Shown here in pieces: positions 46,803 to 53,630 of a stretch of DNA of 64,000 nucleotides (positions are counted from its first letter, which is position 1; every line of letters starts with the position of its first letter). Source of the DNA: Roseibium litorale (GTDB lineage Bacteria; Pseudomonadota; Alphaproteobacteria; Rhizobiales; Stappiaceae); assembly GCF_014842915.1 (NCBI RefSeq), contig NZ_JACYXI010000014.1:1-64000 (forward strand), written 5' to 3'. The notes below the pieces were generated by a model. It saw only the letters and a program-made list of their open reading frames with translations, was not told the origin of the DNA and made no database searches. The translations under genes and the position numbers were made by a program.

Positions 46803-48134
46803 TCACTCTCCGGCGGGGAGGCTGACTTCGGCCAGGAAGCCGGAGCTTTTGCCGGGAACCGGCGACTTGAGCACCAATTCGCCCCCGGTCCTATCGGCGA
46901 TGGTGGCGACGATCGCAAGACCCAATCCCGCGCCCTTGCTGGAGGGGGTGGGGCGCTCGAAACGATTGGTCAGGCCCTGGAGCACATCTGCTGAAATCGC
47001 TGGACATTCGTTTTCGACCGAGAACTGTCCGTGCGGCGACAGCTCGACCTTGATCGCCGTCTTGGGCGCCGCATAGCGGAAGGCATTCTCGACCAGGTTC
47101 CGGATCAGGATACCAAGAGCATCGGGGTCGATATCCGACAGGACCGGTTGTTCCGGCATGGAGAGGTGGATGTGTTCCACCGGAAACAGCCGTTCCAGAT
47201 CCTCCATGATGATCCGCAGAACCGGCCGCACGTCGCGCGGAGTGTCCGTGCGCAGACGCCCGCCCTCTGCCCGGGCCATTTGCATCAGGCGTTCGGACAC
47301 GCGGGTCAGCCGCTTGAGGGAAGCCTCGATCTCGCCAGCCCTCCTGGCGGCATCCGGATCGGATGTTTCGGACTGGAGCCGCTGAGCCTGAGCAATGGCC
47401 CCGGCCAGCGGCGTGCGCAGCTCGTGGGCGGCATTGGCCGCAAAGCTGCGTTCGGCGTCAAAGGCGGCCTTGAGCCGCGACAACAAGCCATTCAGCGTGT
47501 CGGTGATCGGTGTGATTTCACCGGGAAGCGCATCCGCATCCACCGGTGACATGTCGCGTGCACCGCGCGTGGCCAAGGCATCCCGGAACTGGCGCAGCGG
47601 TGCCAGACTGCCCCGCAGGACGAACCCGACGGCAAGCAGCGTGATCGGGATCACCGCCAGCAGCGGCAGGCCAAGACCGATCTGCGCTTCGCGCGCGGCC
47701 TTTTCACGGCGGGACAGAGGTTCGGCGACGGTCAGGCGGATGCTGCCTTGCAAGGCGTCTTCATTATAAAGCCGCAGCGTCGCGGTCTGCCGGAAGCCCG
47801 GGCCGTCATATGCCGGAAAGAGAGCCGGATCGGCGGCATGGGACTGCACCAGAACGTGCCCTTCCGCATCACGGATAATATAGGTGAGGCGCTCCTCGTG
47901 CGCCCGGATTGCCGCCAACCGCTGCGTAACGCCGTCGTCATCCCGGCCGACAATATCGATAACAGCCAGAGGCAACAGGCGCTGCGCGACTTCCATCAGC
48001 GCTGCGTCGAAGACCTCGTTCATCTCCTTCTGCACCTGGACAGCCGTCACGGCCGCCGCACCGATCCAGAGCAGTGTCGACAGGAGGCCGATGCCCAGGG
48101 TCAGCCGGACCTGAAGGGTGCGGGGCAATCTCAT
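46803..48134 (-). CDS. Two-component sensor histidine kinase
   Basis: The 443-residue kinase has two membrane helices (about residues 9-30 and 155-175) flanking a ~125-residue periplasmic sensor domain. A HAMP-like stretch follows, then HisKA with the phospho-acceptor His in AANAAHELRTPLAGA, and an HATPase domain with N-box (NLVENAFRYA) and GLGLAIV. It is coupled to the response-regulator gene by a 4-base overlap. The QseC/TctE-like layout and the divergent PepSY gene suggest sensing of a metal, redox or cationic-peptide stress, but the signal is not visible. Confidence 0.88.
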   Translation of the reverse strand: MRLPRTLQVRLTLGIGLLSTLLWIGAAAVTAVQVQKEMNEVFDAALMEVAQRLLPLAVIDIVGRDDDGVTQRLAAIRAHEERLTYIIRDAEGHVLVQSHAADPALFPAYDGPGFRQTATLRLYNEDALQGSIRLTVAEPLSRREKAAREAQIGLGLPLLAVIPITLLAVGFVLRGSLAPLRQFRDALATRGARDMSPVDADALPGEITPITDTLNGLLSRLKAAFDAERSFAANAAHELRTPLAGAIAQAQRLQSETSDPDAARRAGEIEASLKRLTRVSERLMQMARAEGGRLRTDTPRDVRPVLRIIMEDLERLFPVEHIHLSMPEQPVLSDIDPDALGILIRNLVENAFRYAAPKTAIKVELSPHGQFSVENECPAISADVLQGLTNRFERPTPSSKGAGLGLAIVATIADRTGGELVLKSPVPGKSSGFLAEVSLPAGE

Positions 48135-48790
48135 CCGGCGCCCAGCCGGTAGCCGAGGCCGCGCTCGGTCACGATGGTATTGGCCCCCAGCTTCTTGCGC
48201 AGGCGGCTGACGTGAACCTCAATGGTGTTGCTCTCGATTTCCTTGTCGAAGGAGTAGAGCCGTTCTTCCAGTTGACCCTTGGACAGAAGCTGTCCGGGCC
48301 GTTGCAGAAAGGCCTCGAACAGAACCCACTCGCGTGCGGTGAGCTGCACCGGTTTGCCGTCCTTGCGGATGCTGCGGGCCGCGAGATCGATCTCCAGCGG
48401 GCCATGGGAGATGATCGGATTGGGATTGCCGCTGTAGCGCCGCGCAACGGATCCGATGCGCGCGGACAGCTCGGCGAGATCGAAAGGCTTGACCATATAA
48501 TCGTCTGCGCCTGCATTCAGTCCGCTGATCCGGTCGGACACCTGGTCAAGAGCCGTCAGGATGATCACGGGGGTGACATCGCCCCGCGCTCTGAGGTCCT
48601 TGAGAAAGGGAATGCCGCGGCCATCGGGCAGCATCAGGTCCAGCAGAACCAGCTCGAAGCTGGCGCTGTTGATGGCGTCACGCGCCTCGTCAAGCCGGGT
48701 GACCCAATCAACAGAATGGCCATCTCCCGCAATCTGGTCGCGCACGGCTGTTCCCAGCACGGTGTCATCTTCAATCAGCAATACCCGCAT
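48131..48790 (-). CDS. OmpR/PhoB-family response regulator
   Basis: The 219-residue protein has a receiver domain with the acidic pair (LLIEDD), phospho-acceptor Asp in ELVLLDLMLPDG, Thr/Ser and Lys (ILTALD, MVKPFD), and a C-terminal winged helix (LTAREWVLFEAFLQRPGQLLSKGQLEERLY). ATG 48790 is chosen since the domain begins there, and an in-frame upstream extension is low-complexity shadow. Its divergent neighbours are PepSY-type genes, a frequent pairing. The direct repeat CGCATTCCGC at 48786-48795 and 48806-48815 spans its start. Confidence 0.9.
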   Translation of the reverse strand: MRVLLIEDDTVLGTAVRDQIAGDGHSVDWVTRLDEARDAINSASFELVLLDLMLPDGRGIPFLKDLRARGDVTPVIILTALDQVSDRISGLNAGADDYMVKPFDLAELSARIGSVARRYSGNPNPIISHGPLEIDLAARSIRKDGKPVQLTAREWVLFEAFLQRPGQLLSKGQLEERLYSFDKEIESNTIEVHVSRLRKKLGANTIVTERGLGYRLGAG

Positions 48791-48977
48791 TCCGCACGCG
48801 ACCTCCGCATTCCGCTTCAGCATAGCTTCTATCGTACAGCTGACACAAAGCTGAAGGCGCATCGAATCCGTCTTCAGGATCCTGTAAGTTTCATAGCGCA
48901 AGTGTTCTGCCAATATCCAAGGCGGCCCGCGTTCCCGGCAGGTTGGCCCTCGGTTATTCCGGAATGGAGTTTGGCCT

Positions 48978-49292
48978 GTGAAAATACCCCTGACAGCTCT
49001 TCTGATCGCCGCAAGCGCCGCTCTGACTGGAACCGCCCGCGCCGACGACGACTGCTTTGTTCCCATGAGGGACTGGCAACCCCGCGAAGCCGTGAGCAAG
49101 TTTGCGCAGGAAAAGGGCTGGACCGTGCTCCGGATCAAGATCCATGACGGGTGTTACGAAGTTATCGGGCAGACAGCCGAAGGCCAGCCCATCGAGGTGA
49201 CGCTCCACCCGGCAACTCTTCAGGTGCTTGACTATGAGCTTCGGGACCGCGATCACAAACGCCGGGAAGGCAGACACGGCGAAAAGGACTGA
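48978..49292 (+). CDS. Periplasmic PepSY-domain protein
   Basis: The 104-residue product has a signal peptide (MKIPLTALLIAASAALTGTARA) and a PepSY domain (WQPREAVSKFAQEKGWTVLRIKIHDGCYEVIGQTAEGQPIEVTLHPATLQVLDYE), then a basic His-rich tail (RDRDHKRREGRHGEKD). PepSY domains are commonly regulated by an adjacent two-component system, as here. It starts at GTG 48978. The paired cysteines (DCF and DGC) may form a disulfide. A terminator follows, so it is probably a separate transcript within the periplasmic flavin locus. Confidence 0.8.
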   Translation: MKIPLTALLIAASAALTGTARADDDCFVPMRDWQPREAVSKFAQEKGWTVLRIKIHDGCYEVIGQTAEGQPIEVTLHPATLQVLDYELRDRDHKRREGRHGEKD

Positions 49293-49363: not shown

Positions 49364-49534
49364 CAATGAGTCATTCCCACTCACGGTCTCAAGCCTGCAT
49401 GTTCCGCCATGGGGCGAAATGGAAACGGGGCCTTACCTGAACGCAAGCTGAAGCAGAAATCCGTTTGCCGTCAGGAAGCGCTCAGGCTCGGAGGTGAGAT
49501 TTGCTTCATCGGATCACATGAAAGGATCTTCCCG

Positions 49535-49906
49535 ATGAAAAAGACCCTCGCTCTCCTGGCCGCCGCCACCGCATTGACTGCCGTGATCGGCGTGTCCGCC
49601 TACAGCAGCCTCCTCGGCCCCGTTTCCGGTGGCGGAAATCTCGCCCACCTCCTCTCCGGCGCCGATACGGAACAGGCTCCGGTCATTCTGGCCGGCGGTC
49701 ATGATGACGAACGCGGCAACAAGCGTCTTCGCAGGGGCGATGACGACCATGGCCGCTACGGCGAACATGATGATGATGATGACGACGATGATGACGATGA
49801 CGGCGGCAACGCCCGCGGTCAGTCAAACCCGGCGCCGGCTGGCACCGTCGCTCCGCCGAAGAACGGACTTTTCGGCACAGGCACACCGAAAGTGCAGGTC
49901 AACTGA
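49535..49906 (+). CDS. Secreted Asp/His-rich protein of unknown function
   Basis: The 123-residue product has a signal peptide (MKKTLALLAAATALTAVIGVSA). Its central third is extremely acidic: scattered Asp, His and Arg, then an uninterrupted run of eleven Asp (about residues 79-89) encoded by GATGAT-type repeats at 49768-49801. The tail is Pro/Gly rich. Nothing catalytic is recognised. Such a segment would bind divalent cations such as Ca or Fe. It lies between the PepSY gene and the DUF2271/reductase/ApbE genes, so it may be a metal-handling partner. Confidence 0.7.
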   Translation: MKKTLALLAAATALTAVIGVSAYSSLLGPVSGGGNLAHLLSGADTEQAPVILAGGHDDERGNKRLRRGDDDHGRYGEHDDDDDDDDDDDGGNARGQSNPAPAGTVAPPKNGLFGTGTPKVQVN

Positions 49907-49998
49907 ACCGGCATGACACTTGCGCAGAAAAGGTGGTGAGGGGCCTCCCTATACCCTCACCACCTGGCCCCAACGAACACAGCAGAAGGCAGACACCT

Positions 49999-50469
49999 AT
50001 GAAATCGCTCCTGGCCGCACTCGCCCTGACAACAGCCCTGACACTTCCCTCGATTGCGTCTGCGCGTCCTGTGACCCTGACCACAACCCTCAAGGACTAC
50101 GGGGGCAACGGGGCATATGTCGCGCTGTATGTTACCGACGCGACGGGCGCCTATGCCGGCAGCCTCTGGATGGCGGGCGGGAAGTCCAAATACTATCAGC
50201 ATCTGAGCGACTGGTACCGGGCGACCAACGGCAACCGGGCGGAGATCGACGGCATCACCGGCGCCAGCGTCGGGGCAGGCCGCACGCTCAAGATCACTCT
50301 GGACCTCGCCGATGCCCTGTTTGACGCTGGCTATGAGCTGCATATCGACGCAGCCGTCGAAGACATGCGTGACAGCCCGAATGAAGTCGCCGTACCCTTG
50401 ACCTCGGCTGGTGCGGGAAAGGCCACGCGCGGCCGCCGCTACATCGACTCCTTCAGCTATAATTTCTGA
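49999..50469 (+). CDS. Periplasmic DUF2271-family protein with covalent-flavin motif
   Basis: The 156-residue protein has a signal peptide (MKSLLAALALTTALTLPSIASA). The DUF2271-type domain (LKDYGGNGAYVALYVTDATGAYAGSLWMAGGKSKYYQHLSDWYRA) is followed by EIDGITGASVGAG. The segment D84-G-I-T87-G-A-S fits the D-x-x-[ST]-G-[AST]-[ST] consensus that ApbE uses to attach FMN to Thr or Ser. The gene is 10 bases ahead of the PepSY/FNR reductase and in the same operon as apbE. The inference is a periplasmic FMN carrier, with T87 as the attachment site. Its electron acceptor is unknown. Confidence 0.82.
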   Translation: MKSLLAALALTTALTLPSIASARPVTLTTTLKDYGGNGAYVALYVTDATGAYAGSLWMAGGKSKYYQHLSDWYRATNGNRAEIDGITGASVGAGRTLKITLDLADALFDAGYELHIDAAVEDMRDSPNEVAVPLTSAGAGKATRGRRYIDSFSYNF

Positions 50470-50479
50470 GGAGACAAGC

Positions 50480-52687
50480 ATGATCCGCGTCCTCCACCGC
50501 TGGCCGGGACTGCTGGCGGCAGCTCTTCTGGTTGTTATTGCCTTGAGCGGTGCCGCTCTCTCGCTCTTCCCGGCTGCCGAGACCCTTACGGTGCCGGAAG
50601 TCGAGGCCGGCTTGCCGGTGGCGGATCTCGCGCAACGCATTCAGAACACCTATCCCGGGGTCGAACAGATCCGGCGGGCGCCCTCTGGCCGGATCACGGC
50701 ATACTGGTTCGACAATGGCACACCCGGCTCGGCCGTGATCGACCCGGCAACCGGAATCCGGGCCGCTTCGGCGGACCCGAACGCAACCGAACGCTGGCTG
50801 ACGAACCTTCACCGGTCCCTGTTTCTGGGCGATACCGGACGGATCGTCTCGGCGATCGGCGCGGGCGCGCTTCTGGTGCTGACCCTCTCCGGCATGTTTC
50901 TGGTTGCCCGCCGCACGGGCGGCTGGCGCCGCTGGTTCACCCCGCTTCAGGGACCGCTGGCAGGCCGCCTGCATGTGGAAGTGGCCCGGATCGCGATCGC
51001 CGGACTGCTGCTTTCCTCTGTAACCGGGCTCTGGATGACCGCCGCCACCTTCGAGCTTCTGCCTGAAGGCGGCAGCGCCCCCGCTTTTCCGGCGGACGTC
51101 AGCGGCAGCACCGGTGTTGCCCTGAAGGCGATCCCGGCACTGCAGCAGACTGCCGTAACCAGTTTTCGCGAGCTGTCGTTCCCCTATGCGGGCGATGCCA
51201 CCGATGTCTTCACCCTGAAAACCGACGCCGGGACGGGTTACATCGACCAGGGCACGGGCCAGCTGCTCGTCTGGTCCGGTCTGTCGGCCTATGAGCGCGT
51301 TTCCGAAACCGTCTATATGCTCCACACCGGGCGGGGCGCGTCTCTGCTTGGTCTGGTTCTTGGGGTGATGGCGCTCGGCGTTCCGGTGATGGGCGGAACC
51401 GGTCTTCTCGTCTGGGCAAACGGGCGCCTGGGACGGCCAAGGCTGCGCGGCAACGTGGCGGCTGGAAAAGCTGAGACAATTCTCCTTGTCGGCAGCGAAG
51501 GCGGCAGCACCTGGGGCTTTGCCGCAACGCTCCAGAGCGCGTTGAAGGCTGCAGGACAACAGGTGCATGTCGCTCCCATGTCCAGCTTCGCACCGGGCCG
51601 CTACGCCAATGCCCGCCGGATTGCCGTCCTCGCCGCGACCTATGGCGACGGAGATGCCCCGGCCTCAGCGGCGGGCTTTCTCGACAAGCTGCGCGCGCTG
51701 GACAAGGCGCCCGGGGCTCCTCTTGCCGTCCTTGGCTTCGGTGACCGCAGTTTTCCCGCTTTCTGCGCCTTTGCAAAACAGGTTGAAGAGGCGGCAAGGG
51801 CCAAGGGCTGGCCATTCCTGATGCCGATGGATACGGTCGACCGCCAATCGCCGCAGGATTTCGCCCGCTGGGGCCGCAGCTTCGGCGCGGCGGCCGGTGT
51901 TGATCTCGAACTCAACCACCAGCCCCAGATGCCGGCGGCCACCAGCCTGACACTCCTCTCCCGCCGGGACTACGGCGCCGAGGTCCAGGCCCCGGCGGCA
52001 ATCCTGCGCTTCGCGATCCCGCAGGCGTCTCTGTGGGCGCGTCTGACTGGCCGTGGCTTCCAGACGTTCAAGCCAGGCGATCTCATGGGCATCGTGCCCG
52101 AAGGATCAACCTTGCCCCGCTTCTATTCGCTGGCGTCCGGCACGGAGGACGGTTTTGCCGAGATCGCGGTGCGCAAACACCCCGGCGGCCTGTGCTCCGG
52201 TCAGCTGATGAACCTTCAGCCGGGCGGAAGCGTGCGGAGCTTCATCCGCCGCAATCCGGACTTTCACCCCGGCCGCGGCAAGGCGCCCCTTCTGCTGATC
52301 GGGGCGGGCACCGGTATCGGGCCTCTGGCCGGGTTCATCCGCTCCAATGCCTCCCGCCGTCCGGTTCACCTGTTCTTCGGCGCGCGCCACCCGGACAGCG
52401 ATTTCCTCTATGCGGAAGAGCTCGCCGAATGGTCAAGGGACGGGCGGGTTGGCCGGGTGGAGATGGCCTTTTCCAGAGGACAGCCGCCCATCTATGTCCA
52501 GGACGCCCTCCTGAAGGATGCCGCCGAAGTCTCCCGCCTGATCGCGGAGGGCGCACGGATCATGGTTTGCGGCGGACGCGGCATGGCCCGGGGCGTAAGC
52601 GAGAGCCTGACCGCAATTCTTGCCCCTTCCGGACAGACACCGGCAATGCTGAAGGCCGAGGACCGCTATGTCGAAGACGTTTACTGA
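50480..52687 (+). CDS. PepSY membrane protein fused to flavodoxin and FNR-type reductase
   Basis: The 735-residue protein joins three modules. Residues 1-320 are a PepSY_TM domain with four membrane helices and candidate heme-ligand histidines (H6, H111, H165, H282). Residues 334-480 are a flavodoxin-like FMN domain (LLVGSEGGSTWGFAATL, ATYGDGDAP). Residues 500-735 are an FNR-type FAD/NADPH domain (RFYSLAS at 547, GAGTGIGPLAGFI at 608, CGGRGMARGV). It resembles bacterial CysJ-like/PepSY reductases. Electrons would flow from NADPH through FAD and FMN to membrane hemes and out to the periplasmic flavoprotein encoded just upstream. It overlaps apbE by 20 bases. Confidence 0.9.
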   Translation: MIRVLHRWPGLLAAALLVVIALSGAALSLFPAAETLTVPEVEAGLPVADLAQRIQNTYPGVEQIRRAPSGRITAYWFDNGTPGSAVIDPATGIRAASADPNATERWLTNLHRSLFLGDTGRIVSAIGAGALLVLTLSGMFLVARRTGGWRRWFTPLQGPLAGRLHVEVARIAIAGLLLSSVTGLWMTAATFELLPEGGSAPAFPADVSGSTGVALKAIPALQQTAVTSFRELSFPYAGDATDVFTLKTDAGTGYIDQGTGQLLVWSGLSAYERVSETVYMLHTGRGASLLGLVLGVMALGVPVMGGTGLLVWANGRLGRPRLRGNVAAGKAETILLVGSEGGSTWGFAATLQSALKAAGQQVHVAPMSSFAPGRYANARRIAVLAATYGDGDAPASAAGFLDKLRALDKAPGAPLAVLGFGDRSFPAFCAFAKQVEEAARAKGWPFLMPMDTVDRQSPQDFARWGRSFGAAAGVDLELNHQPQMPAATSLTLLSRRDYGAEVQAPAAILRFAIPQASLWARLTGRGFQTFKPGDLMGIVPEGSTLPRFYSLASGTEDGFAEIAVRKHPGGLCSGQLMNLQPGGSVRSFIRRNPDFHPGRGKAPLLLIGAGTGIGPLAGFIRSNASRRPVHLFFGARHPDSDFLYAEELAEWSRDGRVGRVEMAFSRGQPPIYVQDALLKDAAEVSRLIAEGARIMVCGGRGMARGVSESLTAILAPSGQTPAMLKAEDRYVEDVY

Positions 52688-53630
52688 GCTGTGCCGCCAC
52701 GCCCTGAACGGGGCGACCATGGGCACCCGCTGGTCGGCGCTGTTTCATCAGCGGCAGGGTTTCGACCCGGCACCGGTGCAAGCCGCGCTGCAGGCCGCCG
52801 TGGAGGAGGTCGACGCGCAGATGTCGACCTGGAAACCGGACAGCGATCTGATGCGCCTCAACGCCGCGCCGGCCGGAACCTGGTGGCCTGTTCCAGCCCG
52901 GCTCATGCAGGTGCTCGACGCGGGGCTGACGATTGGCCGGGCGTCCGGCGGGGCTTTCGACATTGGCCTTGGCGATGCGGTCACCGCATGGGGGTTCACC
53001 GCCAGCGATGCCGATACGGCAAGGATACGCGCGGCCCTGAAGGCCGTGCGCCATCCCGCCCACACCGTTCTCGAACTGGACCGTGAGGGGCTTCTGGTCA
53101 GGAAGCTGGCCCCTCTGACGCTTGACCTCAACGGGATTGCCAAAGGCTATGGTGTCGACCGTCTTGCTGAAACGCTCGGCGAATTCGGTATCAAAGACGC
53201 TCTTGTCGGCATTGACGGCGAGTTGCGCGCCCTCGGCTTGCAGCCTGACGGCAATCCCTGGACGGTTGCGGTCGAGGCTCCGGACAGGGAGACCAGAACG
53301 CCGCATTCCATCCTGGCCTTGCAGGACGCCGCAGTGGCGACTTCCGGCGACTACCGTCACTGGATCGAGGCCGGCGGCCGGCACCTTTCGCATACCATGG
53401 ATCCGCAGCGCGGCGCGCCCTTGCAGACATCGCCAGCCTCCGTCACCGTTGTTGCCGGGAGCTGCATGGAAGCCGATGCCTGGGCCACCGCCATGATGGT
53501 TCTGGGTGCTGACGAGGGGGGGCAGCTCGCTCAGCAACAGGGTCTCGACGCCTTGTTCCTGACGAGGCAGGGACCCCGGATCGTGTCCCGCGCCACCGGC
53601 AAGCTGTTCGCAGGCGCTCCGGCGGAATGA
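52668..53630 (+). CDS. apbE: ApbE, FAD:protein FMN transferase
   Basis: The 320-residue protein has ApbE motifs: GATMGTRWSALF, STWKPDSDLMRLN, SGGAFDIGLGDAV, LDLNGIAKGYGVDRL, and the metal/flavin loop ATSGDYRHWIE with SHTMDPQRGAP. It transfers FMN from FAD to Thr or Ser of a target protein. No clear signal peptide is visible from ATG 52668, so export may depend on an alternative start or it may act on an unfolded cytoplasmic target. The DUF2271 protein in the operon supplies the obvious substrate motif. The start overlaps the reductase by 20 bases. Confidence 0.9.
   Translation: MSKTFTELCRHALNGATMGTRWSALFHQRQGFDPAPVQAALQAAVEEVDAQMSTWKPDSDLMRLNAAPAGTWWPVPARLMQVLDAGLTIGRASGGAFDIGLGDAVTAWGFTASDADTARIRAALKAVRHPAHTVLELDREGLLVRKLAPLTLDLNGIAKGYGVDRLAETLGEFGIKDALVGIDGELRALGLQPDGNPWTVAVEAPDRETRTPHSILALQDAAVATSGDYRHWIEAGGRHLSHTMDPQRGAPLQTSPASVTVVAGSCMEADAWATAMMVLGADEGGQLAQQQGLDALFLTRQGPRIVSRATGKLFAGAPAE

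Follow-up and report, generated by a model that had tools for sequence, protein, structure and literature searches.

The closest described counterparts of the locus analysed here are the PepSY-like flavinylation systems (Meheust et al. 2021, PMC8238504), in which a PepSY membrane protein, a DUF2271 protein carrying an [S/T]GA[S/T] motif and the flavin transferase ApbE are encoded together. That survey reported 3220 PepSY-like clusters, 2833 with DUF2271 and 1500 with DUF4198, as well as 1077 PepSY genes with a NAD-binding domain, and proposed iron reduction as a function (PMC8238504). Here we describe a locus of this kind in Roseibium litorale, located in positions 1 to 64,000 of contig NZ_JACYXI010000014.1 (assembly GCF_014842915.1); this whole stretch of 64,000 nucleotides is referred to as the window. 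The core module is hence of an already published type, and its DUF2271 protein belongs to a family published as an ApbE target. What is new is the pairing of an ApbE lacking a signal peptide with a DUF2271 protein that bears a Sec-type signal, a conserved secreted protein with an acidic run and C-terminal tail, and a two-component system that looks dedicated to the locus.

ApbE attaches flavin mononucleotide (FMN) to the last Ser/Thr of the motif D-x-x-[S/T]-G-A-[S/T] (PMC12052999). Flavin attachment by the cognate ApbE has been shown for an Amantichitinum DUF2271 protein and was abolished by a Thr-to-Ala substitution (PMC8238504). Since both constructs were truncated to remove the signal peptide, that experiment is silent on the location of ApbE (PMC8238504). 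Links to iron come from the Caulobacter operon CC_3059-3063, which encodes PepSY-family, DUF2271, DUF4198, ApbE and flavoprotein genes, is repressed by Fur (PMC3751524) and whose insertion mutants are less fit under ethylenediaminetetraacetic acid (EDTA) (PMC11870441), and from Alteromonas, where iron limitation enriches for DUF2271 genes (PMC7190382). The Caulobacter operon differs from the window locus in having a sister architecture, with a separate PepSY protein, DUF4198 and control by Fur.

The core of the window locus consists of the following features:

49999..50469, plus strand: DUF2271 protein with a Sec-type signal peptide, predicted covalent FMN carrier (Pfam PF10029, E 4.6e-35)
50248..50268, plus strand: ApbE motif DGITGAS, residues 84-90 of the DUF2271 protein; the predicted acceptor S90 is encoded at 50266-50268
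50480..52687, plus strand: fusion of PepSY_TM, Flavodoxin_1 and NAD_binding_1 (FNR) domains, 735 residues, with invariant His 6, 111, 165 and 282 (Pfam)
52668..53630, plus strand: ApbE FAD:protein FMN transferase without signal peptide, overlapping the reductase gene by 20 nucleotides (Pfam, E 1.5e-80)

Pfam and the reading frames bear out the DUF2271 protein, the PepSY/flavodoxin/FNR fusion and the ApbE named in a first-pass annotation of this DNA, which had also pointed correctly to genome surveys of PepSY/DUF2271/ApbE clusters (PMC8238504). In agreement with the published class, a PepSY_TM protein is encoded with ApbE and its substrate, the DUF2271 protein carries [S/T]GA[S/T], and the PepSY protein bears a NAD-binding domain, as in 1077 published cases (PMC8238504). 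The window differs in its predicted Ser (rather than Thr) acceptor, in uniting PepSY, flavodoxin and FNR in one chain, in placing a signal-less ApbE last, in its acidic-tail protein and dedicated two-component system, and in DUF4198, a frequent and optional partner that was not among the seven proteins of the locus scanned with Pfam. The counts of PMC8238504 excluded ApbE and FMN-binding genes without a predicted signal and accepted clusters in which one target gene had a signal; because the class needs a signal on one target gene only, a signal-less ApbE is no bar to membership. No discussion of a signal-less ApbE beside DUF2271 was found in PMC8238504, PMC11334425 or PMC12052999, with supplements and most subscription papers outside the search; the phrase "cytosolic flavinylation" is counted once in PMC8238504, with no instance seen in its main text.

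Two samples of related loci were compared. The first comprised the best 80 of 265 named-record loci found, among which some genomes are present twice and contig ends cut some loci. The order DUF2271, PepSY, flavodoxin, FNR and ApbE is kept in 80/80 of them and is hence more than chance; in a Roseibium aggregatum record (L192) the DUF2271 protein is 84% identical to that of the window, although near-identical records may be missing. The second derived from a DUF2271 search of 398 proteobacterial genomes, which found the family in 70, 65 of them above cut-off, the window's genome included. It consisted of 69 regions around DUF2271 matches (67 above cut-off and 2 below, with 8 more sub-cut-off matches left out) plus the window, and the resulting 70 loci were typed with profiles made from the window proteins. 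Type A, the sister type, has a separate short PepSY protein, DUF2271 and ApbE (31 loci with ApbE nearby); type B, that of the window, has DUF2271, the PepSY fusion and ApbE (12 loci, window included); and type C encodes ApbE-DUF2271 fusions (4 loci). The 23 others comprise 18 A-like loci without a nearby ApbE, two B-like loci without one (L093 and L094), L098, and the weak matches L100 and L101.

The most unusual feature of the locus, overlooked by the first-pass annotation, is the missing signal peptide of ApbE. The protein starts with MSKTFTELCRHALNGATMGT and is 320 residues long in a stop-to-stop frame of only 325, so no upstream start can add a signal. The same short N-terminus is shared by the best 120 of 7447 homologues, window included, with no signal-like stretch visible by eye, and in the named-record loci the nearest ATG lies 4 to 16 residues from the first conserved ApbE motif. 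Counted from that ATG, the gene overlaps the reductase gene by 11 nucleotides in 45 of these loci, by 20 in 22 and by 31 in one, with no overlap in 12, so that most loci couple the synthesis of ApbE to that of the cytosolic reductase. Export signals were called with a simple hydropathy score, using a threshold of 1.85 chosen after the data were seen. By this score, signal-like starts are present in none of the 12 type B ApbEs, in 5/31 of type A (L049, a clear lipoprotein, and L033, L034, L072 and L078), in 4/4 type C fusions and in 38/46 other ApbEs of the same genomes, compared with 0/75 response regulators; the ApbEs of the named-record loci gave 0/80 at a threshold of 1.8. Type B bacteria do export signal-bearing ApbEs: nine type B genomes have more than one ApbE, and their ten additional copies all score as exported, eight being Tat-like (twin-arginine translocation) and two lipoprotein-like. 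The window ApbE is thus very probably cytosolic, lacking the signal peptide or lipobox of the textbook extracytosolic enzyme.

Nor does a second enzyme readily account for the pairing. The window genome (99.86% complete) encodes one ApbE and one DUF2271 protein, with no match to FMN_bind, NQR2/RnfD or DUF3570. ApbE is present in 64/64 other genomes with DUF2271 above cut-off, and in 27/43 genomes (24/31 of type A and 3/12 of type B: the window, L086 and L097) a signal-negative ApbE beside an unfused DUF2271 gene is the only one, so that, barring incomplete assemblies, a separate periplasmic ApbE offers no explanation there. The signal-less cytosolic ApbE of Klebsiella is similar in this respect, and differs in that its target is a soluble fumarate reductase (PMC12052999), whereas the sole DUF2271 protein of the window, its only recognisable target in a genome without FMN_bind, has a Sec-type signal. 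An export-signal-like start is found in 55/63 unfused DUF2271 proteins by the hydropathy score, 6 of the 8 misses lying no more than 0.13 from the threshold. Export of window-type DUF2271 through Tat was considered and rejected: Arg-Arg is absent from the first 16 residues of all 120 homologues listed, window included (the best 120 of 2966).

In a tree of 92 ApbE rows, including 45 of the 46 other ApbEs, a supported branch sets off each of types A (31 rows), B (12 rows) and C from the remaining rows. Within type A, the lipoprotein L049 is placed as sister to the remaining 30 rows, whose own branch (93/87) was not starred. Two independent losses of the signal were not upheld, as grouping A and B in a single clade is not rejected (p 0.41; p 0.20 without L049), and the signal may have been lost once or more than once. 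About eleven of the 31 type A ApbEs (e.g. L033, L034, L053, L061, L067 and L069) carry by eye a short RVLIP-like motif at the N-terminus, where a signal peptide would otherwise lie; such a stretch is present in L033, L034 and L072, which score as signal-like, and is possibly a docking element. The ApbE-like proteins L142, L143, L150 and L151 are also signal-negative and form one tree group, with no link to DUF2271 here.

The flavinylation motif of the DUF2271 protein is present as D84-G-I-T-G-A-S90. The first-pass annotation had recognised it and taken T87 as the acceptor; because ApbE modifies the final residue of the motif, the predicted acceptor is S90, and the conservation of this residue makes the assignment very likely. 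Among 65 aligned relatives, S90 never varies and T87 hardly ever does. The motif ends in Ser in 14/14 sampled window-type loci and in Thr in 31/31 sister-type loci with a neighbouring ApbE, although the middle GA varies there (GP, SA, SP, QP), and it is absent from the other six proteins of the window locus scanned. The earlier match to the ApbE consensus holds, with the qualification that the leading Asp is a minority state: the 120 listed homologues carry NGITGAS (101), DGITGAS (16), NGISGAS (2) or SGITGAS (1), so that Asn occupies the first position in 103/120 and Ser in 1/120. In the Klebsiella enzyme, an Asp-to-Ala change at the start of the motif had only minor effects (PMC12052999). The predicted structure of the DUF2271 protein is a beta-rich domain with a mean predicted local distance difference test (pLDDT) score of 72.3, in which residues 69-90, motif included, fall below 50. 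This is consistent with, and no proof of, a flexible target loop around the motif. Comparison of the model with the PDB returned no fold match at E <=0.001, and the DUF2271 profile gave four weak matches to PDB sequences (best E 0.33), none of them a DUF2271 protein by name.

The prevailing view is that proteins exported by Sec receive their covalent cofactors once export is complete. The combination of a cytosolic ApbE and an exported target suggests that in this module the order may be reversed, and that DUF2271 is flavinylated before export, a reading that we modestly favour. Co-expression of truncated forms of ApbE and NqrC in the Escherichia coli cytosol yields covalent FMN (PMC12052999), and since the motif spans only seven residues, ApbE could act on an unfolded precursor. 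We put forward more tentatively, and as slightly less probable than not, the stronger form of this proposal: that DUF2271 is modified in the cytosol as an unfolded precursor on the linear seven-residue motif, that it crosses Sec with its FMN, and that this is the rule in two large proteobacterial ApbE clades. The route by which flavin adenine dinucleotide (FAD) reaches periplasmic ApbE has been called obscure in a 2025 review (PMC12052999). If the proposal is correct, a covalent cofactor would be installed ahead of Sec export and FAD export would be unnecessary. The widespread group in which ApbE seems to remain inside while its target is exported makes it possible to test directly if the Sec channel lets a flavinylated chain through.

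Several points weigh against flavinylation ahead of export. Sec normally requires unfolded substrates. Both the flavinylation of the window DUF2271 protein and its timing are predictions from sequence, and the floppiness of the loop could merely reflect a mediocre model. The ApbE-DUF2271 fusions carry a signal-like start and are exported as one. Weaker DUF2271 signal peptides might be expected alongside a cytosolic ApbE, because flavinylation would come first; this was not the case, the sister-type groups being alike (mean 1.95, n=30, versus 2.03, n=18; p 0.42). In the 18 genomes of A-like loci without a nearby ApbE, at least one signal-like ApbE is encoded elsewhere (18/18; lipobox-like in 17), so that in some bacteria DUF2271 is probably modified in the periplasm; the contrast suggests that it can be modified on either side of the membrane. 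Finally, a cytosolic Salmonella ApbE gave no rescue of the apbE mutant phenotype (PMC12052999).

The Salmonella result, the usual membrane anchoring of ApbE in the periplasm (PMC12052999) and the signals of the fusions would also fit an enzyme that reaches the periplasm without a recognisable signal, for instance by travelling with a partner, and modifies DUF2271 on that side of the membrane, in line with the textbook case. This appears unlikely given the 0/80 and 0/12 signal-like starts in the two samples, the short N-terminus preceding the first conserved motif and the ordinary signals of the ten other ApbEs in the same bacteria. Less probable still is that ApbE modifies another, cytosolic protein, the DUF2271 motif being left unmodified or modified by something else. 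Signal-less ApbEs with cytosolic targets do exist, in Klebsiella with its fumarate reductase and in trypanosomatids (PMC12052999), and against such a target here stand the lack of FMN_bind, NQR2/RnfD and DUF3570 matches in the genome, the confinement of the motif to one of the scanned proteins, the invariance of the acceptor over 65 rows and the flavinylation of a DUF2271 protein by its own ApbE in another species (PMC8238504). It could also be argued that, with gene content equal to the published class (PMC8238504), this is an ordinary PepSY-like system whose missing signal is an artefact of start-site choice or prediction; the stop-to-stop frame without room for a signal, and the short N-terminus kept in the best 120 homologues and the 80 named-record loci, make this very improbable.

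The reading of the locus as a covalent-flavin electron-transfer module, proposed by the first-pass annotation, is well supported by its domains for reduced nicotinamide adenine dinucleotide phosphate (NADPH), its four invariant His and its ApbE motif. The reductase half of the fusion resembles NADPH sulfite and P450 reductases (CysJ/P450-reductase-like NADPH domains), and the 60 listed of its 177 PDB sequence matches all cover the flavodoxin and FNR domains only. In the membrane half, the four His residues are invariant in 93/93 rows. The Pseudomonas PepSY protein FoxB has two bis-His hemes (PMC11334425; PDB 7ABW); as the four His are likewise conserved, two bis-His hemes are expected in the fusion, which shares the PepSY_TM core of FoxB and adds cytosolic flavodoxin and FNR domains. 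A path from NADPH through FNR/flavodoxin and the hemes to the DUF2271 flavin is accordingly predicted with high confidence.

The module is flanked by genes and predicted operator sites in the following arrangement:

46803..48134, minus strand: sensor histidine kinase (2CSK_N, HisKA, HATPase_c) with E37xxE40 in its periplasmic part (Pfam; Glu conservation in 75 aligned kinases)
48131..48790, minus strand: OmpR/PmrA-type response regulator (Pfam, NCBIfam); start placed at 48790, since the alignments to most families set in at residue 4 of the 48131-48799 frame
48839..48856, plus strand: predicted box for the response regulator, GCTGAC-N5-GCTGAAG, lying between the divergent promoters; the genome contains CTGAMNNNNNGCTGAAG at only one other site
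48872..48888, plus strand: second predicted box, CTTCAG-N5-TGTAAG, in opposite orientation
48978..49292, plus strand: small secreted PepSY_2 protein adjoining the two-component system (Pfam PF13670)
49436..49453, plus strand: third predicted box, 5' of the acidic protein/DUF2271 operon (sequence pattern)
49535..49906, plus strand: small secreted acidic protein with an 11-Asp run and conserved C-terminal tail (reading frame, relatives)
49769..49801, plus strand: 11 consecutive Asp codons in the acidic protein (sequence)
49829..49906, plus strand: conserved tail PAPAGTVAPPKNGLFGTGTPKVQVN of the acidic protein, with stop (relatives)

The two-component system and the PepSY gene had also been noted in the first-pass annotation, and Pfam confirms both. 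The pattern CTGAMNNNNNGCTGAAG, which describes the CTGAM-N5-GCTGAAG box, has two sites in the 4.94-Mb genome, both of which belong to this locus (48840 and 49437), compared with five sites for the reversed control pattern. Because the box is confined to the locus genome-wide, the two-component system looks dedicated to it. Tandem boxes are present in the gap between the response regulator and PepSY_2 genes, and CTGA-N7-CTGAAG, with at most one mismatch, was found upstream of separate acidic-protein genes in 33/36 regions, compared with 0.6 expected from single-base shuffles; the 36 were taken from 41 such genes (window included) as having a long enough region and a PepSY_2 match. A related box pattern had two matches outside the locus (L242 and L243), with no related gene seen by eye among the open reading frames near L243. 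The response regulator and the kinase each occur in 75/80 named-record loci and PepSY_2 in 78/80, and the pair adjoins 12/14 B-type or B-like survey loci, the exceptions being L088 and L092. Taken with the predicted boxes, this makes control of the locus by the neighbouring two-component system very probable.

The arrangement recalls the DbfQRS and BqsRS modules (PMC12714742, PMC12666569, PMC4682146), with which it has in common a small secreted PepSY protein encoded next to the kinase and regulator genes, and a tandem pentamer operator with a 6-bp spacer. In Vibrio cholerae, a small PepSY protein directly binds the sensor domain of the neighbouring kinase and controls the two-component system, and such pairs are widespread (PMC12714742); in the window the PepSY protein likewise lies no more than four genes from the pair, as identified by PF13670, another entry than that used in PMC12714742. 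ExxE is found in the sensor of the Fe(II)-sensing BqsS (PMC12666569), and E37 and E40 are conserved in 95% and 93% of the 75 aligned kinases, window included, although this stretch may be kept throughout the kinase family for other reasons. The BqsR operator is TTAAG-N6-TTAAG (PMC4682146), whereas that of the window is of a TTCAG/GTCAG type; PF13670, the divergent orientation and the attached flavin reductase operon are further differences. The NCBIfam equivalog cut-offs for PmrA and QseC were not reached (204.9 of 330 bits and 180.8 of 475 bits, respectively).

The secreted protein with the Asp11 run, whose role the first-pass annotation had left unknown, is a conserved part of the locus and no low-complexity accident, judging from its relatives. 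An acidic run together with a PAPAG[T/S]xxPPxNGLFGxGxxPxxQVN-like tail occurs in 68/80 named-record loci, as a separate gene in 39, as an extension of the PepSY_2 protein in 28 and as both in one. The 12 loci without a tail match are 11 Rhizobiales by title and one Pseudooceanicola (L178); L185, L187 and L194 among them show a similar, degenerate tail by eye. Over 13 tail codons, nucleotide differences amount to 0.21, 0.16 and 0.52 at codon positions 1, 2 and 3 (57 distinct of 69 segments), and the tail hence behaves as a selected protein. Its last 40 residues in the window match 188 database proteins at E <=0.01, some perhaps through the acidic run, and the protein has no family match in Pfam or NCBIfam. 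Two Cys bracket the acidic run in 12/40 separate acidic proteins, and L165, L171, L173, L226, L230 and L233 present such a C-(D)n-C arrangement around the Asp run, which suggests a loop closed by a disulfide bond, which a flavin reductase could cleave. We infer that the acidic protein binds metal. The system is less obscure than the incompletely described one that the first-pass annotation had seen in it, as DUF2271 flavinylation has been demonstrated and iron links are published.

Gene content, motif, missing ApbE signal, boxes and conservation are established at the sequence level, and the explanation that we consider best, with modest confidence, is a two-component-controlled, NADPH-driven transmembrane reductase whose ApbE acts before export. 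Cytosolic NADPH would feed the FNR/flavodoxin half of the fusion, and electrons would cross the inner membrane by way of the two bis-His hemes of the PepSY_TM half to the FMN held covalently at S90 of the periplasmic DUF2271 protein. The DUF2271 protein would in turn donate them to an acceptor in the periplasm, for which ferric iron or some other metal held close to the acidic protein and PepSY_2 is the likeliest candidate. ApbE, whose start codon lies within the reductase gene, would be translated in the cytosol and would use cytosolic FAD as donor to place FMN on the DUF2271 precursor ahead of Sec export. The kinase and regulator, probably modulated by PepSY_2, would activate their own promoter region and the operon of acidic protein, DUF2271, reductase and ApbE.

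The metal or iron role in this scheme is drawn from the sister type and by analogy, and we consider it about evenly balanced. A non-metal task, such as reducing either the oxidation products of periplasmic proteins or a respiratory acceptor, with the acidic protein as a mere scaffold, is a less probable but credible alternative. It is favoured by the locus having its own two-component system, by the lack of DUF4198 and of any transporter among the seven proteins scanned with Pfam, the latter speaking against the iron role in itself, and by cytochrome-b561-like or ferric-reductase-like genes seen by eye in some relatives. The iron-responsive sister-type clusters argue for metals instead, and the acidic runs, PepSY proteins and sensor ExxE fit them, with the proviso on ExxE given above. 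In the search for what these reductases reduce, the acidic-tail protein and the dedicated two-component system provide two further concrete components.

Among the survey loci, L087, L093 and L094 as well as L090 and L099 carry a gene named by eye as ferric-reductase-like or cytochrome b561-like near PepSY_2 and DUF2271. In L094, DUF2271 lies beside such a gene with neither a PepSY fusion nor ApbE nearby, an arrangement that suggests other electron donors for DUF2271. Downstream of the module, the minus strand of the window encodes between 53645 and 56588 a class-III-like aminotransferase, a DadA-like amino acid dehydrogenase and a RidA-like protein, named from their translations and unrelated to the system.

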